A stretch of DNA of 64,000 nucleotides from Alteromonadales bacterium alter-6D02 (lineage in GTDB: Bacteria > Pseudomonadota > Gammaproteobacteria > Enterobacterales > Psychrobiaceae): positions 1 through 64,000 of the forward strand of contig PIZK01000026.1 in NCBI GenBank assembly GCA_002835545.1, read 5' to 3'. Under the pieces are notes generated by a model. That model was not told the DNA's origin and did no database searches. It saw only the letters and a program-made list of their open reading frames with translations. The first letter of the stretch is position 1. Each line of letters begins with the position of its first letter. Position numbers and translations under genes: made by a program. This document shows positions 44,053 to 46,533 of the stretch, piece by piece.

Positions 44053-44517
44053 TTAAATGACGTTTCTATCAAGGATCACCGCGCCATTTCCTTCCTTAAC
44101 TAAAATGTCGTCGGGGTTATATAGTGGGCACTTGTCCATTGAAAGGCAGCCACAACCGATACAACCTGTCAAAGAGTCCCTAAGCTTTGTAAGGTAATTA
44201 ATGCGTGCTGTTAGCTGACCGTGCCACTGGGATGATAGTTGGTTCCAATCGTCTTTAGTGGGTGTTCTGTTTTTAGGTAGGGTAGTAAAGGCTTGCTTGA
44301 TCTCCTGTAAACTAACTCCCACTTTTTGTGCGGCCTTAATTACAGCCACTCGACGTAAGACATCGGGCGCATAACGACGCTGATTACCGTTATTACGCCA
44401 TGACTGAATTAATCCTTTCTCTTCATAAAAGTGCAGTGTGGACACCTTAACGTCACATCGCTTTGCAACGATCCCCACACTTAGTTCTATTTTTTGCTGT
44501 GTTGATGGCTTACTCAT
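44053..44517 (-). CDS. soxR: Redox-sensitive MerR-family activator SoxR
   Basis: The 154-residue protein has an N-terminal winged HTH (VGIVAKRCDVKVSTLHFYEEKG) and the R-x-x-GNQRRY segment. After the dimerisation helix comes the 2Fe-2S binding cluster Cys119-x2-Cys122-x-Cys124-x5-Cys130 in CIGCGCLSMDKC, at the same positions as in E. coli SoxR. The length and tail (LYNPDDILVKEG) also match. Oxidation or redox-cycling agents activate it. It faces a canonical SoxR operator/promoter at 44569-44599 that drives genes on the plus strand. I see no soxS nearby, so this SoxR probably controls its targets directly, as in many non-enteric bacteria. Confidence 0.95.
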   Translation of the reverse strand: MSKPSTQQKIELSVGIVAKRCDVKVSTLHFYEEKGLIQSWRNNGNQRRYAPDVLRRVAVIKAAQKVGVSLQEIKQAFTTLPKNRTPTKDDWNQLSSQWHGQLTARINYLTKLRDSLTGCIGCGCLSMDKCPLYNPDDILVKEGNGAVILDRNVI

Positions 44518-44568: not shown

Positions 44569-44599
44569 TTTACCTCAACTTAAGTTGAGGTTTTATGAT
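44569..44599 (+). promoter_or_regulatory. SoxR-box promoter with 19-bp spacer
   Basis: An 18-bp perfect palindrome CCTCAACTTAAGTTGAGG (44573-44590) sits between a -35 like TTTACC (44569-44574) and a -10 like TATGAT (44594-44599), with a 19-base spacer. This is the layout of MerR-family promoters and closely follows the enterobacterial soxS promoter. It reads to the right, into the 44-residue ORF at 44629. Confidence 0.92.
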
Positions 44600-44628
44600 G
44601 TGCTCACTTAAACACAAAGGGGAAAGGA

Positions 44629-44763
44629 ATGAGGTATTTATTTTTAAATTCAGAGCTTAACGAGAAAGCTAACCAAAATAAAACGACACAAACGCCGCTG
44701 CAGAGAGCAAGTGTGTCGAGCATATTTAAATTATTTAACCGCACCATGAGCCATAAATCTTAA
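44629..44763 (+). CDS. SoxR-controlled small protein, 44 residues, unknown function
   Basis: The ATG at 44629 has a strong ribosome-binding site (GGGGAAAGGA, ending just before the ATG) about 30 bases downstream of the SoxR promoter -10. The frame encodes 44 residues: MRYLFLNSELNEKANQNKT, then TQTPLQRASVSSIFKLFNRT and MSHKS, ending at TAA 44761-44763. It is basic, with a short hydrophobic or amphipathic C-terminal helix (SVSSIFKLFNRT). I recognise no family. The VOC gene starts 50 bases after it, so both are probably on one SoxR-dependent transcript. Translation is supported by the ribosome-binding site and position only. Confidence 0.65.
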   Translation: MRYLFLNSELNEKANQNKTTQTPLQRASVSSIFKLFNRTMSHKS

Positions 44764-44813
44764 TTACTGAAAGAATGGCGCGCACAGTATATGAATTTAA
44801 AAAGGAGAACAAC

Positions 44814-45233
44814 ATGTTGTATTTAGAGCACTTAAATTTAGTTGTACAAGATATACCCCGGGCATTGAAATTTTATCAAGCCGCTTTCCCGCATTGGCAG
44901 ATTCGTGGTGGTGGTGATAGTGAGTGGTATGGTACGCCAAGAAGTTGGGTTCACTTTGGTGATGATTATCAATACCTCACATTCAATGACAGTGGCACAG
45001 GTGAAAACCGCAACTTAATGAGTAATCAACTCGGCTTGTCACACTTTGCCTTCGTGACGAGCAGTCTTGACGCTATTGTGGCCAGGTTAAATGAAGCTGG
45101 TTTTGATATTGCCAAGCCTGGCGCGGAGGACCCTTACCGTAAGAATGTATATTTCGTTGATCCTGATGGCTATGAAGTAGAGTTTGTCGAATACCTAAGT
45201 GATATACCAAGTCAGCGTAATCTATATCAATAA
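44814..45233 (+). CDS. VOC (glyoxalase/bleomycin-resistance) fold protein
   Basis: The 139-residue single-domain protein of the vicinal oxygen chelate superfamily shows the strand-helix opening MLYLEHLNLVVQDIPRALKF, the central WYGTPRSWVHFGDDYQYL and SHFAFVTSSLDAIVARL. The end is RKNVYFVDPDGYEVEFVEYL with the conserved Glu. The His in LEHLNL and Glu in EVEFVE are candidates for metal binding. Start ATG 44814 follows AAAAAGGAGAACAAC and is better than ATG 44775. The substrate is not known; its position downstream of a SoxR-box promoter and the small ORF suggests a role in resistance to redox-cycling compounds or antibiotics. It lies 50 bases before the CPA2 antiporter gene. Confidence 0.85.
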   Translation: MLYLEHLNLVVQDIPRALKFYQAAFPHWQIRGGGDSEWYGTPRSWVHFGDDYQYLTFNDSGTGENRNLMSNQLGLSHFAFVTSSLDAIVARLNEAGFDIAKPGAEDPYRKNVYFVDPDGYEVEFVEYLSDIPSQRNLYQ

Positions 45234-45282: not shown

Positions 45283-46533
45283 ATGGGCTACTTGATGATC
45301 ACGGAGTTAATAAAAACAATGGAATTTGTGATAGCAACAGCAGGACCATCAACTGAGGTATTGTTAATCTTGGGGGCCTTGTTTCTTGTGGGCTTATTCG
45401 CTAATGAGTTAGGTAAAAAAACACATATCCCACGCGTGACACTTTTGCTGGTCGTTGGTGCAGCAGCTAGCCCTTATGGTTTGAATATCGTACCACAGGA
45501 AATTCAAGGCTGGTTTCCCTATATCAGCCAGATTGCACTCTGCATGGTGGGTTTTTTGCTTGGCGAACAGTTCGTTTATCGAACATTATTAAGATCGGGC
45601 AGAGTGATTTGGTTAATTACCATTTTCGAATCGCTTGGAACATCACTACTGGTCTTTATCGTGCTTTATTTGATTGGGGTGCCTTCTGTTATCGCTATTT
45701 TACTCGCTGGCATTGCTCCTGCGACTGCGCCCGCAGCGACGCTGGATGTGATTAAAGAAAGTAAGCTAAAGGGACTCTTACCTAATACATTGCTGCGCGT
45801 TGTTGCGATTGATGATGCATTTGGCATCATCATTTTTGCGTTATGTTTAGCTCTTGCTGGAATAGTTCATGGCTCAGCTGATTTATTGAATGATTTAAGT
45901 TTGGCTGCATGGGAGGTTTTAAGCTCGATCTTAATTGGCTGTATAATTGGCTGGCCCATGGCTAAGTTAACCGGCCGTCTATCCCCCGGAGAGCCGACAT
46001 TAATTGAAGCGTTGGGTTTTGTTTTATTAGGTGGAGGGCTCGCTCAATTAATTGGTGGTTCATACCTATTGTCTAGTATTGTACTTGGCGCAGTAGTGGC
46101 TAATGTTGCGACACATCACAAACGGCCATTTCATGCTATAGAAGGGATCAGTAGCCCATTATTAATTATTTTTTTCTTGATGGCGGGGTTTCAGTTTAAT
46201 GTTGAGGAGTTTTCATCGATTGGGTTTGTTGGTGGAGCTTACATTGTCGCGCGTTCAGTTGGATTAATCGTAGGCGGGTATTGTGGGGCTAGGCTTGCTA
46301 GCGCACCTAAAGTCGTGCAAAACCATATCGGCTGGTGTTTATTGCCTCAGGCTGGTATTGCACTTGGTTTAGCATTGATGGCGGCTGATCGTTATCCTGA
46401 GTATGCCACCTCCATTATTTCCCTGTTGGTTAGTACCACAATCGCTTTTGAGCTTTTTGGTCCTCTTGTTACTAAACTCACGTTGCTGCGAGCAGATAGA
46501 TTACAACGAACTGAAAAATCTAAAAATAAGTGA
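45283..46533 (+). CDS. CPA2-family cation:proton antiporter
   Basis: The 416-residue membrane protein has about 12-13 hydrophobic segments and fits the monovalent cation:proton antiporter-2 family. Recognisable parts are ANELGKKTHIPRVTLLLVVG, the unwound-helix region GIAPATAPAATLDVI and the functional Asp-pair-like RVVAIDDAFGIIIFALCLAL. Near the C-terminus, WCLLPQAGIALGLALMA is seen. No cytoplasmic TrkA-N domain follows. The start is uncertain (ATG 45283, 45295 or 45319), because only ATG 45319 has a GGAG, at a long spacing. It is co-directional with the VOC gene 50 bases upstream and may belong to the SoxR-driven transcript. Exchange of Na+ or K+ for H+ is the family activity; specificity is not known. 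Confidence 0.85.
   Translation: MGYLMITELIKTMEFVIATAGPSTEVLLILGALFLVGLFANELGKKTHIPRVTLLLVVGAAASPYGLNIVPQEIQGWFPYISQIALCMVGFLLGEQFVYRTLLRSGRVIWLITIFESLGTSLLVFIVLYLIGVPSVIAILLAGIAPATAPAATLDVIKESKLKGLLPNTLLRVVAIDDAFGIIIFALCLALAGIVHGSADLLNDLSLAAWEVLSSILIGCIIGWPMAKLTGRLSPGEPTLIEALGFVLLGGGLAQLIGGSYLLSSIVLGAVVANVATHHKRPFHAIEGISSPLLIIFFLMAGFQFNVEEFSSIGFVGGAYIVARSVGLIVGGYCGARLASAPKVVQNHIGWCLLPQAGIALGLALMAADRYPEYATSIISLLVSTTIAFELFGPLVTKLTLLRADRLQRTEKSKNK

Follow-up and report, generated by a model that had tools for sequence, protein, structure and literature searches.

The 44-codon open reading frame ORF44 (44629–44763, plus strand) of Alteromonadales bacterium alter-6D02 is best read as a true protein-coding gene belonging to a new family of microproteins encoded behind SoxR boxes. 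It starts with ATG, lies behind a SoxR box and ends in a conserved 16-residue tail, and it is among 40 open reading frames with such a tail that we found downstream of 156 distinct SoxR boxes. We favour, with moderate confidence, the view that its product would be a SoxR-induced, trans-acting microprotein whose C-terminal helix docks on a putative partner. Although SoxR ranks among the redox sensors studied in most detail, its targets are poorly characterised beyond a few model groups.

In the window, i.e. the whole stretch of 64,000 nucleotides analysed here, soxR (44053–44517, minus strand) runs divergently from ORF44 and encodes a protein of 154 residues with MerR helix-turn-helix and MerR-DNA-bind domains and the cysteine cluster CIGCGCLSMDKC. 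Its 216 bits against TIGR01950 pass the cut-off of 116.9, identifying a bona fide SoxR in this genome. Between soxR and ORF44, and pointing away from soxR, lies a promoter (44569–44599, plus strand) composed of the −35 element TTTACC (44569–44574; identical geometry in relatives), a 19-base spacer and the −10 element TATGAT (44594–44599). The SoxR box, an exact 18-bp palindrome CCTCAACTTAAGTTGAGG without strand (44573–44590), was recovered by both palindrome and promoter-pattern searches, and a SoxR palindrome within such a long-spacer promoter is what marks a site of the SoxR regulon. A reference SoxR palindrome matched the window once (2 mismatches, up to 3 allowed), with 0.03 matches expected and 3 of 100 shuffled windows matching. 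The degenerate SoxR-promoter pattern occurs a single time in the 3.99-Mb genome, at this very site.

ORF44 is preceded by a ribosome-binding site (44616–44628, plus strand) made up of AAAGGGG (44616–44622), 6 nt 5′ of the ATG, and AAAGGA, which directly abuts it; a purine-rich stretch 5′ of the start is found in most relatives. Downstream follows a VOC/glyoxalase-fold gene of type A (44814–45233, plus strand; Pfam Glyoxalase, E 1e-10), which likely starts at 44814, behind its own ribosome-binding site AAGGAG (44802–44807, plus strand), rather than at the upstream in-frame ATG at 44775. Since a scan of the 50-nt gap between the two genes found no terminator-like site, ORF44 and the VOC gene probably share one transcript. 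The sequence thus bears out what the preliminary description had claimed of this site, namely a perfect 18-bp SoxR palindrome in a promoter with a 19-base spacer, and a small open reading frame with a ribosome-binding site placed before a VOC protein. A membrane protein of the Na+/H+ exchanger family is encoded 49 nt 3′ of the VOC gene (45283–46533, plus strand), and may or may not be part of the SoxR-driven transcript.

The soxR–soxS divergon of enterics has, like the window, a SoxR box between divergent soxR and the first target gene. SoxS, with about 107 residues, is a regulator of the AraC type, whereas the product of ORF44 has 44 residues, and neither it nor the family members have a Pfam match to a helix-turn-helix of the AraC/SoxS kind. 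Behind the soxR-divergent boxes of seven further loci (L036, L037, L042–L045 and L047) the first gene encodes, judged by eye, a dehydrogenase, an MFS-type transporter or a flavin reductase, and not a VOC protein. As read from gene order, the soxS position is a swap site.

ORF44 alone, searched against 148 genomes, gave nothing convincing: 19 genomes, its own included, had a match at E ≤ 1, and the best non-self E was 0.05. Nine of 19 other match places were inspected and none had a SoxR box; hence these matches were treated as noise. Taken by itself, this result would suggest a chance frame. Because only the last ~16 codons are conserved, however, a plain ORF44 search misses the relatives, which appear when the position behind the box is read instead. 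SoxR was found in 51 of the 148 genomes, own included (E ≤ 1e-30), and a box-like palindrome (≤3 mismatches) adjoined soxR in all 30 loci fetched. The box led directly to a VOC gene in 16 of these 30 and to different genes in others; besides the window, three loci (L022, L031 and L034) carried a small open reading frame behind the box whose last residues resemble those of ORF44. A search for the box pattern, matched in 33 of 98 genomes of one family, yielded many further tail-bearing frames. A survey of VOC neighbours in named genomes covered 80 loci, a loose criterion assigning a box to 32 of them (one doubtful), and added 11 (two Thalassotalea, a Thalassotalea MAG, Alteromonas halophila, Lacimicrobium, Bowmanella, Rheinheimera pacifica, Colwellia, Aliiglaciecola and two less classified MAGs), among which L155 scores low and L119 duplicates L063.

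The resulting 156 distinct boxes are a non-random sample, drawn from soxR neighbours (27), the one-family box pattern (28), VOC neighbours (30), an order-wide pattern (67) and a small-ORF profile (4); these sources contributed 4, 16, 10, 6 and 4 of the 40 positives, respectively. Boxes with identical flanks were counted once (L119 under L063) and those with more than 1 mismatch in a half-site were excluded. Positives are defined by a leave-one-out tail score above 4 and range from 4.3 to 35.3, with ORF44 at 21.1; the next-best scores are 0.3 (L068, perhaps decayed and excluded from the count) and −3.0. Open reading frames on the opposite strand of the same 156 stretches reach at best −0.9, so none of them matches. 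Training members account for 29 of the 40 positive boxes (30 rows with the second copy in L071), scored with themselves and near relatives omitted. Of the 11 non-training positives, three are near-copies (L085, L154 and L163) and eight are independent (L065, L155, L202, L203, L204, L225, L228 and L240), L155 with its score of 4.3 being doubtful.

Among 34,527 open-reading-frame ends in the loci, scanned with the full matrix and hence partly circularly, all 54 records scoring at least 20 (a count that includes repeated loci) lie 124–341 nt behind a SoxR box. None of the 11 ends scoring 6.2–10.5 lies behind a SoxR promoter, and one of them has a box-like sequence upstream. A profile search of the order matched 203 of 394 genomes at E ≤ 0.5, mostly noise; all seven matches below 1e-6, the window among them, sit behind a box. 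Of 12 weaker matches that we checked, three were behind a box (L169, L176 and L190, all of family f8) and nine were not, L170 and L180 of the same family among these. This profile contained no member of f8, and its three f8 matches behind perfect SoxR boxes (E 0.0014, 0.010 and 0.027) support the tail family independently. By group code, members occur in families f1 (that of the window), f6, f7, f8 and f20, all of one gammaproteobacterial order. A class-wide search with a 20-residue tail profile matched 6 of 369 genomes, the own genome included, and the fetched loci of the other five had no SoxR box; thus no member is shown outside the order.

Aligned at the stop codon, the tail reads F(−15) L x x [FY](−11) F x L(−8) F(−7) N(−6) Q T(−4) M(−3) x N K(0). 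Across the 40 members M(−3) is kept in 36, T(−4) in 32 and N(−6) in 31; K(0) is found in all 40, partly by construction, as the score favours K, and after setting aside one extra residue that follows it in two of them. ORF44 is one of these two: its tail SVSSIFKLFNRTMSHK (44710–44757, plus strand; residues 28–43) ends in K43, followed by S44. Outside the ~16 tail residues nothing is shared. The N-terminal part is polar, mostly basic, variable and unalignable, and the frames measure 21–63 codons when counted from the first possible start after the box. All 30 training rows start with ATG, an internal ATG having been preferred over an upstream start in L061, the first copy of L071, L074 and L081; L204 starts at GTG. 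In the Rheinheimera-like loci L154 and L166, a near-exact repeat of the end of the frame, stop codon included, follows immediately on that stop codon (ATGCAAAATAAATAATGCAGAATAAATAA).

Codon usage in the tail points to selection on the reading frame. T(−4) is encoded by 12 ACC, 5 ACG, 5 ACT and 3 ACA, N(−6) by 16 AAT and 8 AAC, and K by 20 AAA and 10 AAG, and stop codons are mixed among the training rows. Variation is greatest at third codon positions, over the whole stretch as well as at the conserved residues F(−7), N(−6), T(−4) and K(0). Over the last 16 codons, pooled pN/pS amounts to 0.51 in frame, compared with 1.39 and 1.10 in the shifted frames; these values are rough, as they stem from 349, 279 and 310 non-independent pairs, respectively, with synonymous sites near saturation.

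The family looks real and new to the databases searched. Scanning 24 members, all of them also individually, against Pfam, NCBIfam and PHROG brought no curated model over its cut-off, only weak single matches, and no family of these collections common to two members; a PDB search with the tail profile gave no match. Among the literature matches listed, from a collection with few subscription journals, none was seen to deal with a small protein encoded here. We considered YggX (PF04362), an oxidative damage protection protein, which shares the redox-stress setting and gave weak single-member matches only. The match concerned L139 alone (E 0.025, below cut-off) and a stretch that takes in the variable N-terminus; the equivalent NCBIfam model hit 1 of the 24 members (E 0.049). 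YggX was dropped, as the other members, including the Colwelliaceae-type relatives L150 and L156, showed no match; the window genome encodes a separate full-length YggX elsewhere. The earlier statement that the frame matches no known family therefore agrees with the Pfam, NCBIfam, PHROG and PDB tail-profile searches. The same description had made its case depend on conservation of the frame among relatives, and this conservation is borne out, though only for the last ~16 codons, which recur behind 40 of 156 boxes under frame-specific selection.

The distribution of the tail is patchy, with 116 of the 156 boxes lacking it. The boxes of five genomes of the same genus (G001–G005) were read and none had a tail-bearing frame; the box of G004 is too divergent for the set of 156 and that of G005 lies on a different contig from its detected SoxR. 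On a SoxR tree of 98 rows, built by a quick method, presence of the frame needs 18 changes, three of them forced by well-supported branches. Of the 40 frames, 24 begin 38–42 nt behind the box; at boxes without one, the type-A VOC gene begins 35–67 nt behind the box in 63 of 68 cases. In R. hassiensis and Alishewanella the VOC gene directly follows an AAGGAGA-type site, and in R. pacifica the frame lies between two such sites, as would be expected if the gene were inserted or lost when ribosome-binding sites recombine. The gene behaves as a cassette that some loci have between the SoxR box and the VOC gene and others lack. In L051 (1529–1786), a tail-less small frame precedes a VOC frame cut short by a stop after 27 codons; this cassette looks decayed.

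Downstream of the 40 frames the VOC gene is of type A in 33 loci, type B in 1 (L064) and type C in 3, and was not found in 3. The VOC-less locus L071 carries two tandem copies, both with the tail. In the frame-bearing genomes G050, G260, G300 and G389, no type-A VOC was found at E ≤ 1e-6. In 4 of the 40 loci, the frame and a VOC gene stand under a SoxR box without adjoining soxR, SoxR being encoded elsewhere in those genomes; in G413 and G206, soxR has its own box without tail-bearing frame. Because VOC types vary or are absent and such soxR-less box loci exist, the gene tracks SoxR control and not one neighbour. The f8 loci L169, L190 and L228 have a type C VOC (MLPxLxGIDH) after the small frame. 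Judged from these loci, distinct VOC types replace one another in the same slot. In G209, two SoxR proteins (L282 and L292) exceed the family cut-off and neither fetched locus has a SoxR box by the criterion used; a small frame and a VOC gene lie elsewhere in that genome, under a variant box.

In pattern the tail resembles an amphipathic helix and closes with a lysine. Its hydrophobic residues share one face of the helix (test of periodicity, p = 0.0044 over −15 to −1; p = 0.068 including the terminal K), and the tail of L052 contains a proline. AlphaFold predicts a helix at residues 23–41 of ORF44, with a mean pLDDT of 87 for residues 31–40 and of 67.5 overall, i.e. a weak model. We thus propose that oxidised SoxR would switch on the ORF44 transcript, that the protein would be made and act free in the cell, that its variable, mostly basic N-terminus would form a flexible tail, and that the C-terminal helix would dock on one conserved partner and modulate it during redox-cycling stress. 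Action in trans is suggested because the tail-bearing frame persists without a VOC gene, and a specific partner rather than lipid alone because N, T, M and K are strict beyond hydrophobicity. By the same loci, the VOC protein is not an obligatory partner. Most simply, the partner would be something present wherever SoxR is: SoxR itself, in a feedback, or a core redox or membrane component. A stress-regulon small protein docking on a larger partner has a likeness in AcrZ, which is described as co-regulated by SoxS and as interacting with AcrB (PMC4462101). AcrZ acts through the inner membrane, whereas the ORF44 tail has a short amphipathic pattern; we take AcrZ as a functional precedent and claim no kinship with it.

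A more specific proposal, tentative and in our view rather unlikely, is that the family feeds back on SoxR or its reduction from the soxS position via the 16-residue helix or, alternatively, is an arrest peptide sensing redox-cycling compounds. Among 264 tests, no SoxR residue tracked the presence of the small frame beyond phylogeny (best Fisher p 1e-4 among the tests listed), and the three independent pairs on supported branches showed no significant trend; SoxR binding thus receives no positive support.

Arrest and leader peptides such as TnaC and SecM have a variable N-terminus and conserved residues just before the stop codon, as do the tail-bearing frames. ORF44 could accordingly be a regulatory leader peptide whose last ~16 residues act in the exit tunnel, stall at the stop and tune expression of the downstream VOC gene. 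The fixed distance of the 16 conserved residues to the stop, the free N-terminal length and some VOC gene behind 37 of the 40 frames, with gaps of 6–120 nt, would all fit. Unlike TnaC and SecM, however, the frames persist without a downstream VOC gene and in tandem copies (three loci without a type A–C VOC keep the tail, one of them twice). Moreover, three VOC types follow the tail, type-A VOC genes stand behind 68 boxes without it, the RNA fold of the window is unremarkable (z −0.42) and the conserved residues follow an amphipathic-helix pattern. We consider a leader peptide unlikely and keep it in view because conservation next to the stop is its hallmark too.

Mostly basic proteins with an amphipathic C-terminal pattern could also be membrane-surface peptides that act on the envelope or anchor to a membrane complex. 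Conservation of N(−6), T(−4), M(−3) and K(0) is stricter (3.0–4.3 bits) than lipid binding should need, and no long hydrophobic stretch was seen on inspection, which makes this reading doubtful. A chance open frame, with only promoter and VOC gene mattering, would explain the unconvincing ORF44 search and the absence behind the same-genus boxes read, and is highly improbable, being already contradicted by frame-specific conservation across several families, with varied synonymous codons, tails behind 40 of 156 boxes, frame-specific pN/pS and tail scores of 20 or more only behind boxes. That the conservation reflects an RNA or DNA signal coinciding with the frame, as its fixed place behind the promoter (24 of 40 starts 38–42 nt after the box) might suggest, is hardly credible given that third codon positions vary most, even at F(−7), N(−6), T(−4) and K(0), that the length of the frame varies and that its own RNA fold is unremarkable.

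In summary, the favoured reading of ORF44 as a SoxR-induced microprotein acting in trans would mean that, in many related bacteria, the first gene behind a SoxR box encodes a predicted protein whose conservation, limited to about 16 residues, is too short for ordinary homology searches to pick up. Such proteins come to light when one compares what follows a conserved regulatory box from locus to locus, instead of searching with the open reading frame. The tail makes this family directly accessible, since it supplies a motif and a promoter along with some 40 variants from nature.
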